Of a DNA stretch of 32,701 nt, positions 2,179 to 23,996 are shown one piece after another. The notes below the pieces were generated by a model. It was not told where the DNA came from. It ran no database searches and saw nothing but the letters and a program-made list of their open reading frames with translations. This DNA is from a virus, in the IMG/VR virus record IMGVR_UViG_3300049432_000208, positions 1 to 32,701 of that record; one strand, 5' to 3'. The position numbers and the translations under genes were made by a program. Every line of letters starts with the position of its first letter. Within the stretch, counting starts at the first letter, position 1.

Positions 2179-3312
2179 ATGGACTTCATTGACCAACTCA
2201 ACACACTTGCAGCTAAAGTTCCTAAACTCTGTGATGTATTGCAAACCGAAGAGGCGACAAAGAACGCTCTGGTAATGCCATTTATTAACTTACTGGGCTA
2301 TGACATCTTCGATCCCACCGAAGTAATACCTGAGTTCATTGCCGATGTCGGAATAAAAAAGGGTGAAAAGGTTGATTATGCCATCAAGAAAGATGGTCAG
2401 ATCATCATGCTTTTCGAGTGTAAACACTGTGGCGGCGATTTGAGCATCAAGCACGCCTCGCAACTGTTTCGCTATTTCACTGTCACGGACGCACGGATCG
2501 GCGTGCTGACAAATGGCGTGGTCTATCGCTTCTTCACCGATCTCGAAGCCCCGAATAAGATGGACGAGAAGCCATTTCTTGAAGTCAACATGCTCGACCT
2601 CAATGAAACGGTAGTCGCCGAACTGAAGAAGCTGACGAAGCCTGCCTTCAACCTGGATGAGTTGATGACTTCAGCAGGTGATCTAAAATATACCCGCGAG
2701 ATTAAGAAGCTCATGGCCGAGCAGTTGGAAAATCCCTCAGATGAGTTTGTTAAATTCTTTGCGTCAAAGGTATTCGACGGGCCACTCACACCAACCCGGC
2801 GCGAGTATTTCTTCGGTATCACAAAGCACAGCTTTACTCAACTGGTGAATGATCGGATCAACGACCGCCTCAAGTCTGCAATGTCGGGTGTCGCTCTGCC
2901 TGATCCGGGTGCAGTTCAAGAGACAACACCGGAAGGAGGGGAAGATACCCGGCGAGATAGTATGATAGATACAACCGCTACGGAGCTTGAGGGTTTCTAC
3001 GTCGTAAAATCTCTATTAAGGGACGTGGTTGATTTGAATCGTCTGGTTTACCGTGATACACAAAGCTATTTCGGCATCCTTCTCGACGACAATAACCGGA
3101 AGCCCATTGCCCGGCTCTACCTCAACCGCGCCCAGAAGTACATTGGCGTCTTCAACGAGCAGCGGAAAGAGGAGAGGATCGCTATCCAGGACTTAAATGA
3201 TATTTATCAATTTGGCGATAAGATGCGCCGCGTCTTTGCTTTTTATGAGCAGGAGAAAAGCAGCGGCACATCTGAGGCTGAAAATGTAGCAGACGACCAG
3301 CCAGACGCCTGA
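2179..3312 (+). CDS. Stand-alone HsdR_N-type PD-(D/E)xK nuclease family protein
   Basis: A 377-aa soluble protein. Residues about 15-130 match the type I restriction HsdR N-terminal nuclease fold: Glu-rich first helix (EEATKNALVMPFINLLGYD), then D67 in KVDYAI and E80-C-K82 in LFECKH, the expected metal-binding D...ExK set. Family members (COG4748-like) lack the helicase part of HsdR and are often annotated as restriction endonuclease. Residues about 280-360 form a second alpha/beta domain (YFGILLDDNNRKPIARLYLN...KYIGVF) seen in the same family. No methylase or specificity subunit is nearby, so this is not a complete type I system. It may be an orphan nuclease used in phage defence or exclusion, which is inference. 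It has its own leader after a terminator. Confidence 0.75.
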   Translation: MDFIDQLNTLAAKVPKLCDVLQTEEATKNALVMPFINLLGYDIFDPTEVIPEFIADVGIKKGEKVDYAIKKDGQIIMLFECKHCGGDLSIKHASQLFRYFTVTDARIGVLTNGVVYRFFTDLEAPNKMDEKPFLEVNMLDLNETVVAELKKLTKPAFNLDELMTSAGDLKYTREIKKLMAEQLENPSDEFVKFFASKVFDGPLTPTRREYFFGITKHSFTQLVNDRINDRLKSAMSGVALPDPGAVQETTPEGGEDTRRDSMIDTTATELEGFYVVKSLLRDVVDLNRLVYRDTQSYFGILLDDNNRKPIARLYLNRAQKYIGVFNEQRKEERIAIQDLNDIYQFGDKMRRVFAFYEQEKSSGTSEAENVADDQPDA

Positions 3313-5348: not shown

Positions 5349-5780
5349 ATGGTTACGAAAAAGAAGCTCGCTAACAAGTCACCCAAGAAGTCTGGCAAGG
5401 CGCGTAATAGGATTCTAAAATCAGGTGAGCCGACATCTGCGCTGGTAAGAATTTCACAAGAGATTGAGACCGAACCTGACCGGAAAATCGGCCTCAAATA
5501 TTTTGTTCCGCCTGAACTTGAATATCAGTACGCTGATAATCTCAATGTTACCCACACCGAGAACGAGTTTATAATTTCTTTCGTCCAACTACAGCATCCT
5601 CTTGTTGCAACTAATGAAGAGATGAAGGCAGTTGATACTGTCTACGGCAAGTGTGTGGCTCGACTCATTGTCTCACCCCGAAGGATGCCAGCGTTTATTG
5701 AAGCAATGAGTAAGAATTTCAATAGATATATGGAAGAACTAAAATCTAGCATGGAAGCGGAAGAGGGGGCGGAGAAATAA
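5349..5780 (+). CDS. DUF3467 family protein, first gene of the transposon cargo
   Basis: A 143-aa protein with a Lys-rich disordered N-terminus (1-25) and a DUF3467-like domain (about 48-135): 'YADNLNVTHTENEFIISFVQL' is followed by 'VARLIVSPRRMPAFIEAMSKNFNRYME', the expected pattern of a beta strand, an N/HTxxEF motif and a helix. DUF3467 has no proven biochemical role. GGAGG stands 7 bases before the ATG, and the stop overlaps the next ATG (TAATG). Its place at the head of a toxin-antitoxin operon suggests a regulator or accessory antitoxin part; that is inference. Confidence 0.7.
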   Translation: MVTKKKLANKSPKKSGKARNRILKSGEPTSALVRISQEIETEPDRKIGLKYFVPPELEYQYADNLNVTHTENEFIISFVQLQHPLVATNEEMKAVDTVYGKCVARLIVSPRRMPAFIEAMSKNFNRYMEELKSSMEAEEGAEK

Positions 5781-6247
5781 TGCAAGATGAGGCTACAATT
5801 CGACAGCCCAACCGCTCCAATGGCAGAGGTGTTAGTTACGGCGAGCCGTCCCTAGCAGAAAAGGGCGTCTATGTTCTACGTCCTCATATCACGCGGAGGC
5901 AAACTGTCTTTATAGGAGAGGGCAGCATAAAAGTCGTAACGGAAGACCGGCAAGACTCAATCGCCACCCCAGAGAAAGAGATAAGGAAACAGTTCCGCGC
6001 TCTTGCTGCTAAGCTATGCAAAGAGCATCCGTCAATCAACATGAACCCAGAGGTTCTTAGGGGTGCGCCACGAATTGAAGGGACACGGCTGTCGGTTGGT
6101 ACGATTCTGGCGAAGCTATACATTTACGGAAACATTCAAGCTCTCGTAGAAGCCTACGAGCCTCACCTGAGCGAAGAGCAAGTTAAGGAGGCTATTGCCT
6201 ACGCTCAAGACTTCTTGGAGATAGCTTGTGGCTCAAACGAACCTTAA
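5780..6247 (+). CDS. DUF433-type antitoxin with long N-terminal extension
   Basis: 155 aa. The C-terminal part (about 84-148) is a clear DUF433 domain: I-x-MNPEVLRGAPRIEGTRLSVG, a helix-turn-helix-like region, then HLSEEQVKEAIAYA. Plain DUF433 antitoxins are about 75-100 aa; the extra 80 N-terminal residues (beta-rich, with a charged linker) are shared with some longer family members. It pairs with the DUF5615 gene downstream, which overlaps it by 20 bp. The likely role is to neutralise the toxin and repress the operon. The start ATG overlaps the previous stop. Confidence 0.8.
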   Translation: MQDEATIRQPNRSNGRGVSYGEPSLAEKGVYVLRPHITRRQTVFIGEGSIKVVTEDRQDSIATPEKEIRKQFRALAAKLCKEHPSINMNPEVLRGAPRIEGTRLSVGTILAKLYIYGNIQALVEAYEPHLSEEQVKEAIAYAQDFLEIACGSNEP

Positions 6248-6638
6248 GGTCATGGTTGACGAAGACCTTCTTGATAAACGAACAATAGCCGCCCTTCGTA
6301 GTCTTGGCTCGGCAGTCAGCGTAAAAACGATAGAAGAGTGTAGCCTAGCTTTAGGGACTAAAGATAAAATCTTAGTTGCTGCCACGAAGCGAAAACGGCG
6401 AGTGCTATTGACCGCAAATTACAATGACATTAACGAGTCTCGCTATAAGCCATGTGGACATGGCGGCATCATTCTAATTGATCACCCAAGACCTTCACCC
6501 GAAGTTGTATGCGCTCGTTTGAAAGCTTTTTGTAGGTCTGGCAAGAGGTCGCAAGCAAAAGGTCATGTTACATATCTAAGAGCGGATAAGTTCACCATTC
6601 ATAAGTTGCATGGTGAAAAGATTGAAGAGAGGTACTAA
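6228..6638 (+). CDS. DUF5615 PIN-like toxin
   Basis: 136 aa. The N-terminus has the PIN-like core: K-V-M-V-D-E-D (acidic pair near residues 11-13), an LRSLG helix, then D46 with K-D-K-I-L-V-A-A and R-R-V-L-L-T-A-N-Y-N-D-I. In family members this last motif usually reads TxDxDF; here TANYNDI keeps a single Asp, so the active site is slightly unusual. The GTG start at 6228 follows GGAG by 7 bases and overlaps the antitoxin gene. The predicted role is an RNase-type toxin, as for VapC relatives; activity of this variant is not certain. Confidence 0.75.
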   Translation: MAQTNLKVMVDEDLLDKRTIAALRSLGSAVSVKTIEECSLALGTKDKILVAATKRKRRVLLTANYNDINESRYKPCGHGGIILIDHPRPSPEVVCARLKAFCRSGKRSQAKGHVTYLRADKFTIHKLHGEKIEERY

Positions 6639-6828: not shown

Positions 6829-7773
6829 TTAGTGTCCCAAAAGGCTGCCTGTCAGTTCATCATACGTTAGCCTCTTACCTGCAATCTGCTTTACCGTCTG
6901 AATAAACCTGTCGGCATCCTTTCCCTTACGTGTATTGAATCTAAAAGTCTGCTCGTCAAGATAGCGGAACAGATGAAAAGGTTCTACGCTCACATACGTT
7001 CCCTTGATACCGCGCTTTAGAAGACTCCAAAAGTTCTCGATACCGTTTGTGTGAATCTGGCCGTCAACATACTTTTCAGCATGGTCAATCACTTGATGGA
7101 TGTAATCAGTGTGAAGACCGCTATAACCTTTCCAACCATCCGTGAAAAGCTCCGCGCCTTTTTCAACTTGACGCTTCACTTCGCCGTGTAGAGTTGCCTG
7201 TGTCGCGTTATCAATGACCTTTGCTCTGACTTTACCATCGCGCTCTAGCAGACCCATGACAGCAACTTTACCTTTGCCGCCTGTGCCTTGAATCTTCCTA
7301 CCGCGCTCGCTTCTATGCATGTTGCGAGCAAGACCGCCGATGTATGTCTCGTCAACTTCCACTTGACCGGATAGTTTCTCAAACGTGCCACTCTGCATAG
7401 CTAGACGGATGCGATGGAGCAGAAACCAAGCGGTCTTCTGAGTGACACCCAGAGCCCGGTGAATCTCATAAGAACTGATGCCATTCTTAGCACTAGCAAT
7501 CAGCCAGATAGCAGCCAGCCACTTATCAAGACTGATAGCCGAGTCTTCCATGACTGTACCGCGCTTGACGCTGAATTGCTTATGACAAGCCTTGTTCATG
7601 CACTTCCACATGCGGCGAGAAGAGAGATAAGATACTGCCTTGCCTTCACAGTGAGGGCATGTGACACCATCAGGCCAACGCATCATTGCCATGAAGGTGA
7701 CGCACGTATCAGCATCAGCGAAATACTTAATCGCTTCTTGAAGTGTCTTGGGGAAGTTGCTTTCGTTTTCCAT
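6829..7773 (-). CDS. IS1595-family (ISXO2-like) transposase
   Basis: A 314-aa protein of full family length. It has an N-terminal zinc ribbon with C39-x2-C42 and C58-x4-C63, a helical DNA-binding part (about 80-125) and the ISXO2-like DDE domain: D141 in VDETYIGG, D212 in FTDGWKGY, and E246/N247 in TNGIENFWSLLKRG. The start ATG at 7773 lies 24 bases inside the right inverted repeat, so its promoter must be in the element's end. No frameshift or stop is seen, so it is probably active. It is transcribed towards the passenger operon. Confidence 0.95.
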   Translation of the reverse strand: MENESNFPKTLQEAIKYFADADTCVTFMAMMRWPDGVTCPHCEGKAVSYLSSRRMWKCMNKACHKQFSVKRGTVMEDSAISLDKWLAAIWLIASAKNGISSYEIHRALGVTQKTAWFLLHRIRLAMQSGTFEKLSGQVEVDETYIGGLARNMHRSERGRKIQGTGGKGKVAVMGLLERDGKVRAKVIDNATQATLHGEVKRQVEKGAELFTDGWKGYSGLHTDYIHQVIDHAEKYVDGQIHTNGIENFWSLLKRGIKGTYVSVEPFHLFRYLDEQTFRFNTRKGKDADRFIQTVKQIAGKRLTYDELTGSLLGH

Positions 7774-8270: not shown

Positions 8271-8439
8271 GACTCTTCTCAGCCTCCAGAAGCTCCCGCC
8301 AGTGCTCGCCTGATTGCTGTTGCTTAAAAGCCACATGCTCGACCTTCCGCGATCCACATTTCTCACACGGCTTGGAGAATGTGGGCTGCTCGTGAAGACA
8401 CGTCGTACAGACGTAACTGCGATTAAGATTGTCAGTCAT
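8260..8439 (-). CDS. 59-aa zinc-ribbon protein coupled to the cyclase
   Basis: The ATG at 8439 overlaps the cyclase stop (ATGACTGA). The protein carries CTTC (residues 11-14) and CEKC (about 24-27), a four-Cys zinc ribbon, followed by a charged helical tail with several Gln/Glu. A longer frame to 8574 exists but would overlap the cyclase gene deeply. Such mini ribbons may act as adaptor or nucleic-acid-binding parts; the specific role here is unknown. Confidence 0.65.
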   Translation of the reverse strand: MTDNLNRSYVCTTCLHEQPTFSKPCEKCGSRKVEHVAFKQQQSGEHWRELLEAEKSLEH

Positions 8440-9211
8440 TCTTCTTAGGTCGCGGACCAACAGGTATACGAAGTGGCGGTCGAGACGTGGTCTGGGATTT
8501 ATTAGGATCAGCGGGTTGGGGGCGAGGGCTAGGAATGGAGCGGGGCTGTACACTCGGCGGCTTTTGTCCACCACTTAAACCGCTTCCCTGGCTGCTGATT
8601 ATTCCTCGAGCCGATGTTGGGTTGTTAGCTCCCCTTTGTCTTTCGGCGATCATCCGCGGTGTAGCGGTCTTGGTGATCTGATGCTTGCCATCAAACCCCT
8701 GTAATTCGAATTCAGACGATATGAATCTTAGGGTCTTATGCTCAGGTGCCTTCTCAAAATCAATCTGACTTATTGCATCCCTGCTGACCATGACACCGCT
8801 GCCCCGAGCCACGCTCATCACACGCTGGGTGAAATTAACGGCTGTGCCGAAGATGTCGCCGTTATCTTCAATCCGTACAGCGCCAACATGCACTCCTGCT
8901 CGGATTGCCACCCTCTGATCCCCGGTGTCATCGTGTAATGACACTGCAAAATTAAATGCCGCGACTGCTGTTTTGAAGACTGCAAAAAAAGAGTCGCCAG
9001 CAGTTTTAACTTCATAACCGTTCCAGAGGCTTATCCAAGAACGTGCCGATAGGAAATGGGCACGTCGGATTTCATGAAACTGCTGGTCTCCAACTTCGCG
9101 CTGTAAGACGGTTGAACCAACGATGTCAGTGAAGACAATGGCGAGGGTAAGATGGTCTGTTTTGGCTTGAAGCCAATCCTGAATGCTCATAACGGGCGCA
9201 TTGTACGTCAT
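8432..9211 (-). CDS. Class III adenylate/guanylate-type nucleotide cyclase with Pro-rich tail
   Basis: 259 aa. The catalytic domain (about 20-185) has the class III set: metal Asp D29 in FTDIVGST and D73 in TAGDSF, the purine-side residues K69 (GYEVKTAGD) and D119 (NGDIFGTAVN), and the transition-state pair N126 and R130. The Lys/Asp pair is the one expected for ATP rather than GTP. No sensor domain or membrane helix precedes it; residues about 195-259 are a disordered Pro/Ser/Arg-rich tail. It heads a minus-strand cluster with a zinc ribbon, a 68-aa protein, a two-TM protein and a beta-rich protein. Signalling by a cyclic nucleotide to the membrane partner is a reasonable inference. Confidence 0.85.
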   Translation of the reverse strand: MTYNAPVMSIQDWLQAKTDHLTLAIVFTDIVGSTVLQREVGDQQFHEIRRAHFLSARSWISLWNGYEVKTAGDSFFAVFKTAVAAFNFAVSLHDDTGDQRVAIRAGVHVGAVRIEDNGDIFGTAVNFTQRVMSVARGSGVMVSRDAISQIDFEKAPEHKTLRFISSEFELQGFDGKHQITKTATPRMIAERQRGANNPTSARGIISSQGSGLSGGQKPPSVQPRSIPSPRPQPADPNKSQTTSRPPLRIPVGPRPKKND

Positions 9212-14634: not shown

Positions 14635-15294
14635 TTAAATCGCGTGGTCAATCCCATCGCGCACGTAACTAACCGGGTCGCCCAGGAAGTCCATCGGCAC
14701 GCGGTTGCCGTAGCGTCCTCCGAGTCGCTGACCTGTATCGTTTGGCGAGTCAGGGTCTGTGTATCCACCGCCGCCGGTACGATTAGGGCCGAAACCTGTC
14801 CGTCCGGTGGTGATGTTCTCGCGCCAGGGAAAGGCTGAGGCGATGGTTTCGCCGGAGATGATCACCGAGTCAGGATCTGCCAGTAGCTCAAATGAGGCTT
14901 GCGCTTCGTCAACTTCACTGGCAGCCAGCTCGCCCTGGCACTTGGCGTCATAGTAAGAAAGAAGCGTATCGCGATCAGTAAAAATCACTCCCCAGATCGC
15001 TCGCGCTCCGTCCATCTGTCTTGTCGAACTGGAGAGGAGTTCACCGATTGCCCTGTCGGCGTTCTGTATTTTGAACTCAACGACATCTGCTTCCAGCCCA
15101 AGAGATGTGGAGAAAGGCGACGGATCTTTCATGTCGCTGTTGTAAACCTGCTCCTCCGGCACATCCACCGTGAGCTGACCGGTCGAGAGATGTAATTCAG
15201 TTTCGCTGGTGAGCGTGATGTCCACGCACGAATGGTGAATCAAGTGGCCGGAGTCAATGAGCGTCTGGAGTGCGGGTCTGACTTCTCTTGGCAT
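14635..15294 (-). CDS. Minor tail protein after the tape measure (219 aa)
   Basis: The ATG overlaps the tape-measure stop (TAATG). The N-terminal half (LIDSGHLIHHSCVDITLTS...LHLSTGQLTVDVPEE...VVEFKIQNADRAIGELL) has strand patterns seen in minor tail proteins of the DUF2163/BR0599 sort that follow the tape measure in many siphoviruses. The C-terminal 60 residues are Gly/Thr/Pro-rich and probably flexible. No catalytic Cys-His-Asp set of an NlpC peptidase was found. Confidence 0.6.
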   Translation of the reverse strand: MPREVRPALQTLIDSGHLIHHSCVDITLTSETELHLSTGQLTVDVPEEQVYNSDMKDPSPFSTSLGLEADVVEFKIQNADRAIGELLSSSTRQMDGARAIWGVIFTDRDTLLSYYDAKCQGELAASEVDEAQASFELLADPDSVIISGETIASAFPWRENITTGRTGFGPNRTGGGGYTDPDSPNDTGQRLGGRYGNRVPMDFLGDPVSYVRDGIDHAI

Positions 15295-18200
15295 TACAGT
15301 CCTTTCCTCCTTCGCTTCTTTCTGACCACGCCGACAACCGCGTCCGCAAAGTCCTGCGAGCGAACGAGGGCGCTGTACCCTCTGCCGTCTTCGTTCTCGA
15401 TGAGTTCAATGCTCTCGATGCGCAGCGTCGGTAAGCCGCCCTGCACCGTGCTGCCGTCAGCTGTGCCGCCGTTTGCCAGCCCGGGCACGCGCTTGGCCTG
15501 AAGGTAGCCTGAGATGGGTCTCCACACGTCGGGCGTGAGCACCACTTCGTTGCCGGTGACGCGGATGAGTTTGTCGTCTTTTCTGTCGTAAGATCCCGGC
15601 ACCAATCCTGAGAAGGTCGAGCCGCCCATGCTGTAAGCCTTGAAAGCAGAGTTGGCGGCGAAGGCCGAGGCCACACTTCCACCATCAGCGAAGACGGGAC
15701 GCATCCGGTTGCGATTATTGGCGCGCGTGGTCTGTTCGGAAGCGGCCTTTTCGATGTAGCCGATGATGGGCGCGAAGTGGCTCCATGTTTCCATGTGGTG
15801 CCGCTTGGTCTTGCTGTCCTTGATGCCGTTGCCTACCTCGACCCACTGACTATGCAACTGCGCAATCTCAGAGCGCGCCTGCGTGCCGGTCATCTGGTCG
15901 GTCTGGACAGCAGCGAGGATCGCCCACAGTCTGTCGCGTGTGCTTCCGGTGGCCGCGTCTCTGGTCTTCTCATCCTTCTTGCGCTGCGCGTCACGATTCA
16001 TAAAGTAAGCGCCAATCAGCAGCGCACCTGCGATAGGAGCTATGAAGGGCAATGCACCGGCGATGCCTGCGGCTATTCCACCCAGACTGCCAAGGCCAGC
16101 AAAACCGCCCATGATGGCACCGTAACCGGCAAGGCCAGCAGACAGCCCCAAAGCGCCGCCCGCGATAGATCCAATCCCGCTGGCTGCGCCGGAGGCCTGG
16201 AAGAAGCCACCACCGAGCGAAGCACCTGCGCCGAGACCCAACATCGGTAACAGGCCGGCGATAGATGCGCCCATGCCAGTGCGAGCTGCGCCGTGAATGG
16301 CTTCGTGTCCTGCCGATGCTCCCAGCGATCCAAGTGCGACACTGCCGTTAATGGTCGCGCCTGCGCTCACGCTGGCCGGAGAAGAGGCGTTGCTGCTACC
16401 ACCGCCTGTGATGCGACTAATGACGCTCGACACCAGCGACCCGATGCCACCACCTCCGCCGCCGCCGACAGCGGCCACGCCGCCTCCAATCGCTCCACCG
16501 GAGGCCGTCGCCGTGCCGCCTTTACCCAGACCTTTCAGCACAGAATTAAGGATGCCGGAGAGGACTTCCCGCACCCGGCTTTGCAGGTAATCGACGACGA
16601 TGTCTTTCCAGAGCTGGTTAAAGCCGGACTTGATCTCCTGCCACGCCCCCTTGAAATCATTGTTGAGCACCCTGCCGAGCGCGCCACCGAAGATGTCTTC
16701 TATCGAATCGGCATAACCCTGCATGGTGTCGGCAAGCATCTCCCATGCGTCGCGCTGCGCAAGGATGGCGTCAACCTCGGAGGCTCGAAGAAGAAGCTGC
16801 TCGCGCATCTCTGTGCTGAGGTTGGCGTAGGCTTCGCCTTCCAACTCCTTCTCGATTCGTGACCGCTCAGTCTTGTTGTTGCTGTCATCAAGTTTGCCGT
16901 TTAACTCAGTCAGAATAGAACTATATTGGTCAGCCGATTTCTTCTGCTGTTCGGTTGCGTCTTGCGTAGCAGTAGCATCTGCTGAGCGACTTATCCCGGC
17001 AACAAACTTATCCCACTCAGCATCAGTCATTCCTTGACGTGGGCGCGCGCCGGAGAGATTGATTATCCTTTCAAGTGCTAACCCGATGGCTTGTAGTCGC
17101 GCTGGCTCTGGCAGGCTTTTTACCGATTCGACCACGTTCTTAAGCGGATCAAGCTGGCTTAAAGTCAGACCTATTTCTTTGACGGAACTTAATTGTTCGA
17201 TGAATTTTTGTAAGTGGGTGTCGCCACCTTTCCCGTTGAGTTCAGCCAAAGACCGAAGAGTTTGGTCAGTCATCTCAGCAATGGATTTAGATAGAGCTTC
17301 AGCGTTTGCTCGCGTTTTTTGGGTAGCTGACATTGCATCAACTGAACGCCACGCCTCACGAAGTTGATTAACCGCATTCTTATTTTCGTCAAGAGCAGTC
17401 GCAGTTGCTGTGCTTTCGAGTCGCGCTTGCTCCATCCGCAAGTTGAATTTCTGAACTTCCGTTGCGCCCTCACCTAAGCCGGTAGAAAGTTCTTTTTGGC
17501 GTTTCCGAACCTCAACTAACTGTGAGGCAAGCTGAGTAGAAACATCTTTGCTTGCTTTCTGAGTATCAAGCTCCTTAGCTTTAGCAAGAGCAGATTCATA
17601 GATAGTTATGATGTTCTTTTTAATGGCATCATCGGTAGAAGTGATGCCTTCACGAAAGAACTGTTCTTGAACAGCCGCAAGTTCAGTTGTATTTCCTAAC
17701 GTGCGTAGCCTTGATTCAACGTCAGCGAGAATATCTTTATATTGCTTCAGTTCGTCAGTTTCACGCTTTCGTGTTCCGCCTCTTACACTTTTACTTGTAT
17801 TAGTAGAAGGCGGAGCAACTGGCACTTGATTGAATCCTTCAGCAAATCCGCCACTTGCCGATGAGCCTGCGAAACGCAGCGCGGATGCTGCCGCTCTGTC
17901 ATAGGCAGCTGCAATGATTTCCAATTCCTGAGCCAGCATTCCGCCAGCTTTAAGAAATTCAACGGCTGCATCACGGCTATAACCAAGAGCGTTGGCAACT
18001 CTTACGTTCTTGTCAATGTTTAGCGTTAGCTCTTTGTTTAGACTGGCAATGCTAGATTCATTGTTAACAATGATCTCGCTTTGCATCTTAATTTCTTCGC
18101 TGAGGTTATCCATCCTCTCAGTCACCGGGTTATACACTTCGGTGATACCCGACTTGAGAAGTTGATAGGAACGATCAATGTTCATTCGATGGGCAGTAGT

Positions 18201-19838
18201 ATTGTCGTTCAAATACTTAATACTTTTGCTCTGTTGAACTATTCCGTCAGACGTGATTCGGAGGGTAGCCTGCAAAGCCGCCTGACTATTTGCCAGCTTG
18301 TTGTCAATAACCGCTGACAATGCAGTGACGGCATCTCCTTCCTCTTTCAAACTTTTAATATATGCCTGAGTAGCGGGGTCTAATCGTCCGATGACAGCAT
18401 TAAGGTTGTCATGCTTCATTGCTGACTGGTCTAGGGCAGCAGAAACCTCTTTGGCCTCCTTATGTGTCTGCGCTTGAGACTCTATGAAAGCCATCGTTAT
18501 GTTGTTGGCTTTTGTAGAAGCTGACTCATAAGAAAGAATGGCATAAAGAGCAATGCCAATTCCGGCAGCTACAGCGATCCAGCCGAGATTAGTTAGAGTG
18601 AGCAGGCCAGCTACCTTACTCAGACCGCCGCCAAGCACAAGGAATTGCGCCTGAAGAAAGCCGACAGCGGCAGTCAAACCGCCAATCGTTATTGCAAGTG
18701 GGCCAACTATCGCCAGCACTCCACCTAAAATCAACAGAGTTTTTTGAACGCCGGGAGGGAGGGAGGCGAAGGCATTAACTAAACCTTCAATTTTTTCCGC
18801 CGCGAAACTGAGAACTGAAGATACGGCGGGAAGTATAGCCTTGCCGACTTTTGCAAATGCGATGTCAACCGTATCAGCGAAGTTTTCAAGTTCATTCTGA
18901 ATGCCACCCGTCATCTTCGGCAGCTTCTCCAACTCAGCAACCATCTTGTTCATGAACTGTTCAGTTGATAAGCCGAGTTCTTGTAGTTGCTTTGTGTCAA
19001 CCGTTCCGAAAGCATCTTTGAGAGCTTTGCCGACGGCAGGCGCGGCTTCAATAATTGGTCGAAGGTCTTGAGAAAGTATCTTCGACTTGCTTGCCATTTG
19101 CCCCAACTGAATCGTTATCCGTTCAAGTTCAGCTTTCCCTCCACCCGTAAACGCAACGGCATTTCCGAAGGCGATGAGATAGCGTTCCGCCTGCTGTGCG
19201 CTGAAACCAACTGCCTGTAGTCGGATTGAGCCTTGAATGGCCTCTCTAAAGCCTAAACCGGGTAGCTTGGCAACTTCACGAAGCGACACCAACCGCTTTT
19301 CGACAGCCTCCGCCGAACCTTCGACGGCAAATAGCCCGCGCTTTAACGAGTCGTATTTGACGGCACTTTCTATGGCTGCTTTACCAGCAGCTACAAGCGG
19401 AAGGGTGAGAGCGGCACTCAGACCGCCACCGACCACCATCAGACTTCTGCCTGCTGCCTGAACTCGCTTAATGCTTTGCTCTGCCGCACGAACTTTATCG
19501 CCCTCAGCTTTGAGGTAGCTATCAGCAGCACGTTGAGCTTCACGAATCTGAACTTGAGCTAGTTGTCGCGCTGAGCGTTCACGAAGACGATCTTGCTGTT
19601 CCGCTTGCCGCGCAGTTTGATTATGGATGCGTTCAACTTGGGCTGCGTATCGTCGCTCTTGCTCAAGAAGTTTCTGTGTGTTGTTGGATGTAGGATTAAC
19701 GCGAGGGTTAGCGGCGGAGGAAGCCTGTTGTCTCATGCGCTCGACGTTAGAGTTGACAGACTTAATGCCTTTCGCCGTTCGGTCAGAAACCGAAATGGGT
19801 ATAACTATTTCGTAGTCACTCTCTCTGCCGCGCATCAT
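15294..19838 (-). CDS. Tail tape measure protein (1,514 aa)
   Basis: It is a very long protein with an N-terminal coiled coil (about 20-130), a tape-measure family region (about 130-330, LREVAKLPGLGFREAIQGSI, then GQMASKSKILSQDLRPIIE), hydrophobic segments around 340-440, long charged helices to about 1,080, and a Gly/Ala-rich hydrophobic stretch (about 1,140-1,330) before a compact C-terminus. These are the hallmarks of siphovirus tape measures, and the length sets tail length: at about 0.15 nm per residue this implies a tail near 220 nm (estimate). The first ~950 codons look clearly less GC-rich than the last third, so the gene may be mosaic. It is preceded by a terminator hairpin. Confidence 0.92.
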   Translation of the reverse strand: MMRGRESDYEIVIPISVSDRTAKGIKSVNSNVERMRQQASSAANPRVNPTSNNTQKLLEQERRYAAQVERIHNQTARQAEQQDRLRERSARQLAQVQIREAQRAADSYLKAEGDKVRAAEQSIKRVQAAGRSLMVVGGGLSAALTLPLVAAGKAAIESAVKYDSLKRGLFAVEGSAEAVEKRLVSLREVAKLPGLGFREAIQGSIRLQAVGFSAQQAERYLIAFGNAVAFTGGGKAELERITIQLGQMASKSKILSQDLRPIIEAAPAVGKALKDAFGTVDTKQLQELGLSTEQFMNKMVAELEKLPKMTGGIQNELENFADTVDIAFAKVGKAILPAVSSVLSFAAEKIEGLVNAFASLPPGVQKTLLILGGVLAIVGPLAITIGGLTAAVGFLQAQFLVLGGGLSKVAGLLTLTNLGWIAVAAGIGIALYAILSYESASTKANNITMAFIESQAQTHKEAKEVSAALDQSAMKHDNLNAVIGRLDPATQAYIKSLKEEGDAVTALSAVIDNKLANSQAALQATLRITSDGIVQQSKSIKYLNDNTTAHRMNIDRSYQLLKSGITEVYNPVTERMDNLSEEIKMQSEIIVNNESSIASLNKELTLNIDKNVRVANALGYSRDAAVEFLKAGGMLAQELEIIAAAYDRAAASALRFAGSSASGGFAEGFNQVPVAPPSTNTSKSVRGGTRKRETDELKQYKDILADVESRLRTLGNTTELAAVQEQFFREGITSTDDAIKKNIITIYESALAKAKELDTQKASKDVSTQLASQLVEVRKRQKELSTGLGEGATEVQKFNLRMEQARLESTATATALDENKNAVNQLREAWRSVDAMSATQKTRANAEALSKSIAEMTDQTLRSLAELNGKGGDTHLQKFIEQLSSVKEIGLTLSQLDPLKNVVESVKSLPEPARLQAIGLALERIINLSGARPRQGMTDAEWDKFVAGISRSADATATQDATEQQKKSADQYSSILTELNGKLDDSNNKTERSRIEKELEGEAYANLSTEMREQLLLRASEVDAILAQRDAWEMLADTMQGYADSIEDIFGGALGRVLNNDFKGAWQEIKSGFNQLWKDIVVDYLQSRVREVLSGILNSVLKGLGKGGTATASGGAIGGGVAAVGGGGGGGIGSLVSSVISRITGGGSSNASSPASVSAGATINGSVALGSLGASAGHEAIHGAARTGMGASIAGLLPMLGLGAGASLGGGFFQASGAASGIGSIAGGALGLSAGLAGYGAIMGGFAGLGSLGGIAAGIAGALPFIAPIAGALLIGAYFMNRDAQRKKDEKTRDAATGSTRDRLWAILAAVQTDQMTGTQARSEIAQLHSQWVEVGNGIKDSKTKRHHMETWSHFAPIIGYIEKAASEQTTRANNRNRMRPVFADGGSVASAFAANSAFKAYSMGGSTFSGLVPGSYDRKDDKLIRVTGNEVVLTPDVWRPISGYLQAKRVPGLANGGTADGSTVQGGLPTLRIESIELIENEDGRGYSALVRSQDFADAVVGVVRKKRRRKGL

Positions 19839-19849
19839 TTATCCCCGAA

Positions 19850-19893
19850 ACACAAAACCCCGCGAGAAAATCACTCAAGATTTCCGTCGCGGG
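19850..19893 (-). terminator. Terminator/attenuator immediately before the tape measure gene
   Basis: On the minus strand CCCGCGA (19893-19887) pairs with TCGCGGG (19865-19859) and is followed by GTTTTGTGTTT, ending a dozen bases before the tape measure ATG. It closes the small HTH operon. Its sequence is related to the hairpin before the 350-aa gene at 23866-23914. Confidence 0.7.
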
Positions 19894-19944
19894 ATTGAAT
19901 ATTGGCTTCAGGGAATGAAGCACTGGTTGTCGAAAGGGATTATA

Positions 19945-20115
19945 TCATTTAGCGACCATGCCGTCTATACATCCTTCTATAAAATATTGTCCTTCGATGT
20001 GAGCTATCATTGATGATGGCTTACCTATCGGAATTTGTAGGAGTGCCGCAAGAGCGACAAGCGACCCTAAAATCCCAACAACATCCTTCCAGCGTGAATA
20101 ATGCCTACTCGACAT
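19945..20115 (-). CDS. 56-aa single-pass membrane protein
   Basis: An ATG-started frame on the minus strand: a basic N-terminus (SSRHYSRWK), one membrane helix (about 11-29, DVVGILGSLVALAALLQIP) and a short polar tail. There is no clear ribosome site, which lowers confidence. It is third in line after the HTH regulator and the 50-aa gene and ahead of the terminator before the tape measure. It could be a small membrane moron or holin-like protein; nothing decides this. Confidence 0.45.
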   Translation of the reverse strand: MSSRHYSRWKDVVGILGSLVALAALLQIPIGKPSSMIAHIEGQYFIEGCIDGMVAK

Positions 20116-20136: not shown

Positions 20137-20289
20137 TTACCTATTTGTCTTCTGCTTCTTTTCTAACTTTTCGAGAGCCTTGCGAGCGCCTTCTGAGGTA
20201 GGTATCTGCTGAGCGGTATAGTTCCGCACGTCAGCCTTTATTTTGCTCTGCTGAGTTTCGATGAACTTGCGCGCGTCGTCGGGCTTCAC
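20137..20289 (-). CDS. 50-aa charged helical protein coupled to the HTH regulator
   Basis: The GTG start overlaps the stop of the HTH gene (GTGA). The product is almost entirely helical and charged (KPDDARKFIETQQSKIKAD, later EGARKALEKLEKKQKT), with no Cys and no membrane segment. Coupling to the regulator suggests a partner or modulator. Function unknown. Confidence 0.5.
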   Translation of the reverse strand: MKPDDARKFIETQQSKIKADVRNYTAQQIPTSEGARKALEKLEKKQKTNR

Positions 20290-20486
20290 TTTGCCTTACC
20301 ACCTTTCTTCTTCGTCGCTGGCCTGCCAACTTTCCGCTCTGCTACCAGCTTCAAGTCCGACTCTTTAACCAGATAGACCTTCCCATATTTCTGCGCTGGC
20401 AAACGTCCTGCCGTGATGAGAGCGTTAATGCGCGAGCGATGCACACCTAACCTATCAGCCACTTCCTGAGTCGTCAGTAGATTCAT
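20286..20486 (-). CDS. Excisionase/MerR-like HTH DNA-binding protein
   Basis: 66 aa from the ATG at 20486; the frame extends to 20561, but that would overlap its own predicted promoter. Residues 3-50 form the winged HTH of the excisionase/MerR type: LLTTQEVADRLGVHRSRINALITAGRLPAQKYGKVYLVKESDL in pieces, with the usual 'AGRLPA' turn and wing. A Lys/Arg-rich tail with a GRPATKKK AT-hook-like motif follows. It probably regulates the divergent promoters at 20539-20606, where two identical 13-bp sites lie; a role as excisionase is possible, but no integrase is in the window. Confidence 0.8.
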   Translation of the reverse strand: MNLLTTQEVADRLGVHRSRINALITAGRLPAQKYGKVYLVKESDLKLVAERKVGRPATKKKGGKAK

Positions 20487-20538
20487 GGGCTGCATTATAG
20501 GCGAGACGAGTTGTGATGTGGTAGTGAACATGCGTGGA

Positions 20539-20567
20539 ATTATATCGAAACTATATAGCAATGTCTA
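20539..20567 (-). promoter_or_regulatory. Sigma70-type promoter of the HTH operon
   Basis: On the minus strand, TAGACA (20567-20562) and TATAAT (20544-20539) are spaced by 17 bp. The start site would be some 45 bases before the HTH gene ATG. A 13-bp operator candidate (20548-20560) fills the spacer. Confidence 0.7.
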
Positions 20568-20595
20568 GGAATTTTCTTGACAAAACTATATAGCA
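20548..20595. repeat. Pair of 13-bp operator candidates (AAACTATATAGCA)
   Basis: Two identical direct copies, 20548-20560 and 20583-20595, are 35 bp apart; each contains the palindrome CTATATAG and is followed closely by GTCTA. One lies in the spacer of the leftward promoter and the other in the spacer of the rightward promoter. Binding between -35 and -10 is the way MerR-type regulators act. Confidence 0.75.
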
Positions 20596-20606
20596 GTCTA
20601 TATAAT
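20577..20606 (+). promoter_or_regulatory. Consensus sigma70 promoter of the plus-strand module
   Basis: A perfect TTGACA (20577-20582) and a perfect TATAAT (20601-20606) with an 18-bp spacer, which contains the second operator copy. It drives the genes from 20694 onward. A promoter this strong would need repression. Confidence 0.85.
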
Positions 20607-20625
20607 TCTCGACATCGAAACAATA

Positions 20626-20660
20626 AAGGCCAGCTATCCCGCGAAGAATGAACTGGCCTT
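20626..20660 (+). other. Leader hairpin
   Basis: AAGGCCAG (20626-20633) pairs with CTGGCCTT (20653-20660) in the untranslated leader of the 77-aa gene. No T-run follows; it may stabilise the transcript. Confidence 0.4.
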
Positions 20661-21435: not shown

Positions 21436-22308
21436 ATGGCTATTAGAAAACACACGCTTAATGAATCAGCTTTTGATTCAATAACAGAAGAAAGTGCCTA
21501 CTGGATTGGCTTTTTCATGGCTGATGGTTGTATTACGACGCGCCTAAAGAAAGATGGCAAACCAATGCCGTCTTATATTCGCCTAGATTTAGCCGTACAA
21601 GATGTAGAACATGTAGAAAAGTTCAAAGCGTTTTTAGGTTCTACTCATAAAATTACTATAGGCCATAATGGCAAGAGTGCTGTTTTGGCAATTAGTTCGT
21701 TGCGACTTGCGAAAGCACTTGAGCAATTCGGCATCACGTCAAGAAAAACTCATTCTGCAAAGGTTATCGGATTAGAACAAAACAGGGATTTCTGGCGCGG
21801 ACTAATTGATGGCGACGGACATATTACTATTGCTCATGCGGGACGTAACCGGGCAGCAAAAGCAATGTTGAAATTATGTGGTTCAAAAGCCATGCTTATA
21901 CAATTCAGAGATTTTGTACAGACTCACTCTCCCGATTGTCGCATGTCAATTAAAGAGTATAGAGGTATTTATCATATTGCCATGTGTGGTAAATATGCTC
22001 GTCAAACAATCTCTGTTTTATATTCAGGCTGCTCTGAAGCTCTTGAACGGAAACGTCAAAAGGCTGTTGAAATCCTTAATAGTTTTCCTGCTCAAGATTG
22101 CTATGTATCCGAAACTGATAGGCAGGAATGGCTTACACAGTCGAAAGCGGCTCAAATACTAAGCATTGCGCGGTCAGGTATTCATAGACATATCAATGTT
22201 GGCCGCTTCAAAACTAAAATAATCTTAGGGCAAAGGTATGTGAGCAGAAAAGATGTTTTGAATTATGTGCCTTATGAAAACGGCAGAGGGCGTGGGGTGA
22301 AGGTATAA
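21436..22308 (+). CDS. LAGLIDADG homing endonuclease with C-terminal HTH
   Basis: 290 aa from the ATG at 21436. Two LAGLIDADG motifs are visible: AYWIGFFMADGCI (about 23-35) and DFWRGLIDGDGHI (about 117-129), with the catalytic Asp at each end, so this is a single-chain, two-motif enzyme. Residues about 235-280 (LTQSKAAQILSIARSGIHRHINVGRF ... VSRKDVLNYV) form a second DNA-binding HTH of the excisionase type, like that of the regulator at 20286. The gene is visibly more AT-rich than the phage genes around it, pointing to transfer. It is a freestanding gene; no intron or intein is evident at its borders. Confidence 0.88.
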   Translation: MAIRKHTLNESAFDSITEESAYWIGFFMADGCITTRLKKDGKPMPSYIRLDLAVQDVEHVEKFKAFLGSTHKITIGHNGKSAVLAISSLRLAKALEQFGITSRKTHSAKVIGLEQNRDFWRGLIDGDGHITIAHAGRNRAAKAMLKLCGSKAMLIQFRDFVQTHSPDCRMSIKEYRGIYHIAMCGKYARQTISVLYSGCSEALERKRQKAVEILNSFPAQDCYVSETDRQEWLTQSKAAQILSIARSGIHRHINVGRFKTKIILGQRYVSRKDVLNYVPYENGRGRGVKV

Positions 22309-22318
22309 AAAGAGCAGC

Positions 22319-22356
22319 ACCTAGAGCGCAGCATAAGCCACGCTCTAGGTTTCCCT
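22319..22356 (+). terminator. Bidirectional terminator after the homing endonuclease
   Basis: ACCTAGAGCG (22319-22328) pairs perfectly with CGCTCTAGGT (22341-22350), followed by TTCCCTT on the plus strand. On the minus strand a TTTTT lies a few bases beyond the stem. It separates the inserted plus-strand module from the late operon. A second small hairpin (TTCCCG-CGA-CGGGAA) follows within 30 bases. Confidence 0.75.
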
Positions 22357-22453
22357 TGCTACCCTTCCCGCGACGGGAAAACAAAAACAGTGTGTGTGTG
22401 AATCAATTTATTGCGGCTAACACTTCAAAATCTTCTTCGCGGCCTCTCACCCG

Positions 22454-22787: not shown

Positions 22788-23840
22788 TCAGTTATCTCGG
22801 TCTGCACGTTTGAAGGCTGAGATCACTGTTGCCGCCGCTTCGACCTTGTACATAGGGTGAAACGACTGTAGAAAGCGCAGCCGCAACCCTTCGGTGTAGG
22901 GCTGGAAGGCAAGTTCTTCCGGTTCTGCTACAGCCTCCTCAGTGGCCGCAGGAGTCGGATCAACAGCCGTGATGTTCCTCGGGGCTTCTCCAGCGGCCAG
23001 CCGCTCATCGAGCGAGCGGGTGTCTGTGAAGACCACGTCGCTGTAGTGAACGATGGTGCCGTCCGGCTTCGTATCCGGCTCGGTGCTGATGCCCAAGAAA
23101 TGCTCATCGCAGAAACTGATGCCCTGACCGAGATTGATCACGGTTTCGAGCTTGCCCACTTCACCTTTCGTGTGCTCGATGCCGTAAGCGAAGTCATCAC
23201 GGAAACTGGAGCGGCGCGTCTGCTCGGGGCGACGAAAGAGGAGCTTCAATCTGTAGGCGGGGTTCTCCGGATCGCCGATGAGAAGACGCACAGCAATCAC
23301 GCCACCCTGCTCGAACATGAAGCTGATATCGGTGAGTGAATTGCTTGACGCTACGCTCTCGCCTTTAACTTTGAACCATTGCTCGATGGCGCTCTCCATG
23401 TACTCGACGGAGAAGTTTTTCATCTGCTCAGCGGTCAGAGGAAAGAAGTCGGCGTGCCACTGGCCATCACCGTTTTGCTTGTAGAGCTGAACGGCTTCGG
23501 AAGGGATTAGTCCCTTGTCAACTACAGCAGCAGGCAAACTCTTGGGGCGGAACCCGCCACCCTGAATCAAAGCTGAATAGAAGAGATGATTGGCTTCGCT
23601 TTCTTTGGGTAGGCGCGGTCGCACACGGCCTTTGGTCATCTTCTCGGTAACACGTTTCGTGTCTTTCTCGCGCTGAATGATCAATTGCTGGTTGCCGGCA
23701 TTGAGCGCGGCGAAGGTATGAAGAAAGACCACCTCGCGGTCGCCATCGGCTTCGAGCGTCTGAACTTTGGTTGTCGGTTGATCCACCCAGTAGGGACGGG
23801 GCTTCATTGGTGTTGCGTTAACTTCCTGCTGGCCTGACAT
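22788..23840 (-). CDS. 350-aa phage protein between tail tube and tape measure
   Basis: The ATG at 23840 follows AAAGGAG by 7 bases; a longer frame to 23921 would include the terminator stem and is rejected. The body is soluble alpha/beta (DREVVFLHTFAALNAGNQQLI; RVRPRLPKESEANHLFY; IEQWFKVKGESVASSNSLTD; VIAVRLLIGDPENPAYRLKLLFRR), with an Ala/Glu/Pro-rich linker near 305-320. No family recognised. The place in the operon suggests tail assembly or a tail accessory role. It overlaps a downstream GTG but the next ATG lies just beyond its stop. Confidence 0.6.
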   Translation of the reverse strand: MSGQQEVNATPMKPRPYWVDQPTTKVQTLEADGDREVVFLHTFAALNAGNQQLIIQREKDTKRVTEKMTKGRVRPRLPKESEANHLFYSALIQGGGFRPKSLPAAVVDKGLIPSEAVQLYKQNGDGQWHADFFPLTAEQMKNFSVEYMESAIEQWFKVKGESVASSNSLTDISFMFEQGGVIAVRLLIGDPENPAYRLKLLFRRPEQTRRSSFRDDFAYGIEHTKGEVGKLETVINLGQGISFCDEHFLGISTEPDTKPDGTIVHYSDVVFTDTRSLDERLAAGEAPRNITAVDPTPAATEEAVAEPEELAFQPYTEGLRLRFLQSFHPMYKVEAAATVISAFKRADRDN

Positions 23841-23865
23841 GAAATCTCCTTTGGTTTGCTGGTCT

Positions 23866-23914
23866 ATAAAACACAATAACCCGCCACAAGATTTGTCATC
23901 CTGTAGCGGGTTAT
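23866..23914 (-). terminator. Terminator/attenuator before the 350-aa gene
   Basis: On the minus strand ATAACCCGC (23914-23906) pairs with GCGGGTTAT (23884-23876) and is followed by TGTGTTTTAT. It shares an AAATCTTG...GTG...GCGGG...TTGTGTTT order with the hairpin before the tape measure gene, so the two are probably related copies. It would lower expression of genes after the tail tube. Confidence 0.65.
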
Positions 23915-23996
23915 CGCGCAATTGCGAAAGTGCCGTACTTGTGAAAGAACGTGAAGGATCGGGAGCTATGCGCGCCGCCTTCTCAAAAGAGTCGAA

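Follow-up and report, generated by a model that had tools for sequence, protein, structure and literature searches.

A small HTH_17 regulator and its paired operators at divergent phage promoters: a probable repressor switch with relatives in Acidobacteria

Comparison with described regulators

The closest worked examples of the arrangement described here are Apl of phage 186 (PMC7498355), RdfS of ICEMlSym (PMC11963761) and CvkR of CAST systems (PMC9938897). Apl, one of the Cox/Xis-type dual excisionase-regulators, is a small excisionase-family protein whose binding between major phage promoters represses both, which it does as a cooperative array on direct repeats 10-11 bp apart, at promoters facing each other (PMC7498355). 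RdfS, an oligomeric excisionase of the HTH_17 type, binds attP as well as the promoter of its own gene, with no consensus motif found (PMC11963761). The MerR-type repressor CvkR is leaderless, stands beside its leaderless target cas12k and represses through a motif lying mainly in the promoter spacer, though this spacer measures 21 nt and the motif forms a 15-nt inverted repeat (PMC9938897). BldC of Streptomyces is a MerR-like winged HTH protein of 68 residues carrying neither coiled coil nor effector domain, and assembles into head-to-tail oligomers on direct repeats (PMC5859096). The locus analyzed here shares features with each of them. It differs from Apl in its back-to-back promoters and in its sites, which are 32-37 bp apart with an inverted one between them in many relatives, and it differs from RdfS in its sharp motifs with a residue-base code. 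A search of the literature available to us gave no description of this regulator family.

The window, which is the whole 32,701-nt IMG/VR contig IMGVR_UViG_3300049432_000208, belongs to an uncultivated tailed phage whose capsid and tape-measure genes were located on the minus strand by a Pfam profile search; the contig may be a fragment of the phage genome. Two back-to-back operons form a cassette whose neighbours are a tail-region gene (22788-23921) on one side and the tape-measure gene (15294-19838) on the other, and terminator hairpins likely flank this cassette at both ends (Table 1). An 11-bp exact inverted repeat, CCGTCGCGGGA / TCCCGCGACGG, is also located at the two ends (19884-19894 and 22366-22376), and could be due to chance or mark the cassette ends. 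A third good promoter, which lacks the operator (TAGACG-17-TATAAT with extended TG, 19939-19967, minus strand), lies upstream of the tape-measure gene, and the HTH_17 domain of the cassette endonuclease is of the same domain class as the regulator. Elsewhere the contig encodes an IS1595-type transposase (6829-7773, minus strand), a protein whose N-terminal domain is that of type I restriction HsdR (2179-3312, plus strand), an adenylate/guanylate cyclase catalytic domain (8432-9211, minus strand), and a DUF433 protein followed by a 136-aa protein (5780-6638, plus strand), which we take to resemble a toxin-antitoxin pair. Relatives of the same phage numbered none when sought through the tail-region gene and two when sought through the capsid, one of which, a 65 kb contig, has no regulator; a search of phage records gave no match at either the DNA or the protein level.

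Table 1. Positions of the cassette features in the window.
Feature	Position	Strand	Remarks
Likely leftward-operon terminator	19849-19896	-	Hairpin + T-rich flank; -24.7 kcal/mol, z -4.3; precedes tape-measure gene
56-aa ORF	19945-20115	-	Membrane-like by eye; no match in Pfam, NCBIfam, PHROGs
50-aa ORF downstream of regulator	20137-20289	-	No Pfam match
HTH_17/excisionase-family regulator	20286-20531	-	81 aa from ATG 20531, predicted leaderless; PF12728, TIGR01764, winged-HTH model
Divergent promoter/operator region	20539-20606	.	Architecture recurs in relatives
Regulator promoter	20539-20567	-	-35 TAGACA 20567-20562, 17 bp, -10 TATAAT 20544-20539; 11/12 consensus
Candidate operator O3, AAACTATATAGCA (TGCTATATAGTTT on regulator strand)	20548-20560	+	Inside leftward spacer
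Cargo-operon promoter	20577-20606	+	-35 TTGACA 20577-20582, 18 bp, -10 TATAAT 20601-20606; 12/12 consensus
Candidate operator O1, AAACTATATAGCA	20583-20595	+	Abuts rightward -35 directly
Leader hairpin AAGGCCAG...CTGGCCTT	20626-20660	+	In rightward transcript; leader -16.6 kcal/mol, z -3.0
First cargo gene, 77 aa	20694-20927	+	Shine-Dalgarno-like AAAGGA; no family match (Pfam, NCBIfam, PHROGs)
Second cargo gene, 116 aa	20917-21267	+	From ATG 20917; no family match (Pfam, NCBIfam, PHROGs)
Third cargo gene, 67 aa	21231-21434	+	CxxC pairs; no Pfam or PHROGs match
LAGLIDADG endonuclease, C-terminal HTH_17	21439-22308	+	PF14528 5.3e-8; PF12728 4e-5; PHROG 4645 6.2e-35
Likely terminator at distal cassette end	22319-22350	+	Strong hairpin; -22.6 kcal/mol, z -5.7

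Divergent promoters, paired operators and the regulator protein

The original prediction placed a leftward and a rightward promoter back to back, each holding the same 13-bp repeat in its spacer at a distance of 35 bp, and both statements proved exact. Among the sigma-70-like sites of the 18.7 kb scanned, the two promoters rank first and second. O1 and O3 are identical copies whose starts are 35 bp apart, and the core CTATATAG of the 13-mer is itself palindromic. Nowhere else in the window does an exact 13-mer recur in direct orientation within 60 bp; such a repeat appeared in 0 of 30 order-2 Markov simulations and in 2 of 20,000 sequences obtained by shuffling the local 160 bp, by which a chance origin was ruled out. 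The proposed search for the 13-mer elsewhere was carried out, and no further copy was found within two mismatches in the rest of the contig. A degenerate third copy lies 35 bp downstream (20614-20628), and an inverted middle operator (O2) was not detectable in the window, where its best match reached 5 of 9 positions.

The first leftward gene had been described as a 66-aa excisionase/MerR-like HTH protein, of which the class assignment holds and the start is probably another. The protein matched PF12728 (3.4e-12, 46.9 bits vs a curated cut-off of 27) and TIGR01764 (1e-11, 45 bits vs a curated cut-off of 28.8), as well as excisionase-family models in a PHROGs search. The leftward promoter points to ATG 20531, which stands 7 nt after the -10, so that a leaderless mRNA encoding 81 aa is probable. 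Leaderless genes are known in Acidobacteria, where they average 13.3% (PMC3160421). The 66-aa form arises from an inner ATG at 20486, a possible alternative leaderless start. A second TATAAT (20487-20499) lies 7 nt before this codon at the same spacing as the main -10, with a -35 that is poor by eye.

An AlphaFold model of the regulator (mean pLDDT 79) was a winged HTH, whose nearest structures are BldC, phage Pukovnik Xis and MerR DNA-binding domains; the top VIA-align matches, 6ama (Z 7.7) and 6amk (Z 7.5), fall under Z 8 and are hence to be read at the fold level only. The predicted protein is thus a stand-alone MerR-like winged HTH, with BldC as its top structural match; to our knowledge BldC is not known as a divergent phage switch. 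The coiled coil and effector domain of classical MerR proteins are absent, and the 81-aa protein has no room for them. The confident fold ends near residue 67 and is followed by a basic GRP tail that is AT-hook-like, in which G-R-P is invariant in a 46-sequence alignment; this tail may act in the AT-rich minor groove. A defence role was considered and dropped, a weak mad1 HTH match being its sole lead.

Relatives and the covariation of helix and operator

The closest relatives of the regulator come from a second phage contig (L003, 64% identity) and from five Acidobacteria MAGs, and we infer the host of the phage from relatives of one gene only. Of 147 genomes sampled from the class to which the Chloracidobacterium MAG belongs, 38 carry the family, several of them in multiple copies. 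When the upstream regions of 67 family loci were compared, a common plan was observed, in which the divergent and the regulator promoter stand back to back with a 17-bp spacer in each, about 14 bp between their -35 boxes, and 6-7 nt from the regulator -10 to the start codon. A test for the two promoters was passed by 37 of the 67 loci vs 1 of 1,526 places picked at random from this DNA; strong promoters lie 6-8 nt before the start codon and are nearly absent at other positions, which favours leaderless translation. The spacers are 17 bp in 33/40 and 30/40 of the relatives for the two promoters, and the O1-O3 distance is most often 33 bp. In many relatives an inverted copy, O2, lies between the -35 boxes. 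Their leftward-side operator overlaps the -35, whereas that of the window lies wholly in the spacer, 6 bp nearer the -10. Distant HTH_17 relatives were rejected as carriers of this plan, as most of the 12 examined failed the two-promoter test, with L005 coming close.

The genes on the divergent strand vary among these loci. A small SWIM zinc-finger gene is divergent from the regulator in 16/67 loci, elsewhere the gene is HNH-like (by eye) or ArdC-like, and because of this variety the regulator seems to serve mobile elements in general as a switch reused for different cargo. The SWIM zinc-finger loci include L003 (5615-5878, minus strand), L031, L032, L074 and L097, often with a tyrosine integrase next. 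At L058, L059, L061 and L082-L087, the divergent gene encodes a family of about 113 aa (MRKDNSTRTP...), multi-copy in some genomes, and is preceded by a conserved AAGTCCTC-type hairpin.

The matches to excisionase-family models, and a tyrosine integrase gene that 13/67 relatives carry on the divergent strand and that frequently follows the SWIM zinc-finger gene, would suit a protein that is chiefly a recombination directionality factor (RDF) of that integrase, with the promoter sites as an autoregulatory side activity. However, an integrase was not found in the 32.7 kb contig, itself possibly a fragment, and most relatives showed none on the divergent strand within the retrieved DNA (often 1.5 kb). 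The operators at the promoters are also not spaced as RDF sites: the direct repeats of RDFs such as Apl lie about one helical turn (10-11 bp) apart (PMC7498355), vs 35 bp for O1-O3 in the window and 32-37 bp among the relatives. We consider this role unlikely.

The operators were further compared with the protein sequence, using the 40 non-redundant loci, out of 67, that passed the promoter filter, with promoters picked by score; the p-values given here are optimistic, because the loci are related and not independent. O1 matched O3 at 7.20 of 9 positions within a locus vs 6.03 between loci (p<1e-4), and matched inverted O2 at 7.15 of 9 vs 5.80 (p<1e-4), while wrong-orientation controls were nearly flat. 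Operator distance rose with differences in the recognition helix (Mantel r=0.30, p=2e-4; partial 0.29), and the protein outside this helix gave no signal (r=0.08, p=0.15), which argues against mere relatedness behind the covariation. An 8-residue window slid along the protein peaked at residues 17-24, which is the recognition helix. When protein positions were scanned against 16 operator positions, residues 18 and 21 alone passed family-wise correction. Arg18 accompanied G in 17/17 loci vs 1/22 (p=3.5e-10). Among the loci with A or C at the operator position paired with residue 21, Gln21 was found with A in 13/13 and Arg21 with C in 13/13 (p=1.9e-7). The bases paired with both residues fall in the -35 box itself. 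The regulator of the window carries Ser18 and Asn21, which places it outside both residue-base rules, so that its operator cannot be predicted from them. The locus nearest to it in helix sequence is L070 (HRSRVGVL), whose O1 reads GCTATAGTT and closely resembles the GCTATATAGTT of the window.

Since the operator bases covary with its recognition helix, the adjacent HTH protein very probably binds these operators. The repeats adjoin integrase genes in some relatives and might instead serve another protein, as integrase arm sites or as sites of a host regulator, with the HTH protein a bystander; but the operator bases covary with the recognition helix of the HTH protein and not with its other parts, which makes this scarcely credible. 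The same covariation supports the earlier view of the region as a compact two-way switch for a phage-borne module, with the HTH protein on the left in control.

Repression and its meaning for the family

On balance, we consider it likely that the winged-HTH protein binds both 13-bp operators and represses its own and the cargo promoters; physical binding, repression in place of activation and leaderless translation are what we infer from sequence comparison. The 81-aa (or 66-aa) protein would bind the two operators and thereby occlude RNA polymerase from both divergent promoters. It would limit its own synthesis, because polymerase is kept off its promoter, resulting in negative autoregulation, and would silence the rightward operon of three small genes and the LAGLIDADG endonuclease.

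The position of the operators had been taken as a sign of MerR-type control, in which the protein would twist the spacer and activate one or both promoters. A MerR-like winged HTH, as predicted by the model, together with an operator within the spacer is consistent with this, and CvkR offers a precedent as a MerR-type protein, though a repressor, whose motif falls for the most part in the promoter spacer of a leaderless gene (PMC9938897). However, classical MerR promoters have spacers of 19-20 bp (PMC5859096), whereas those of the window are 18 and 17 bp and already optimal; the operator overlaps the -35 in relatives, and the regulator has neither effector nor coiled-coil domain. On these three grounds MerR-type spacer control was rejected, and we regard such activation as very improbable. 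For the same reasons, repression by occlusion fits better than activation by DNA distortion.

The family consists of regulators of 60-80 aa with a readable residue-to-base code, often in several copies per genome, in Acidobacteria, a phylum with few genetic tools. A tentative reading, to which we give somewhat less than an even chance, is that they belong to a large and hitherto undescribed class of leaderless mini-repressors carried by mobile elements of Acidobacteriota, in which two recognition-helix residues define many specificities insulated from one another. If this is true, the promoter and its repressor would coevolve, because the operator bases for both residues lie inside the target -35 box, and the specificities may set immunity groups among co-resident elements. 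This makes it testable how co-resident mobile elements escape cross-repression, and the family could supply small orthogonal repressors.
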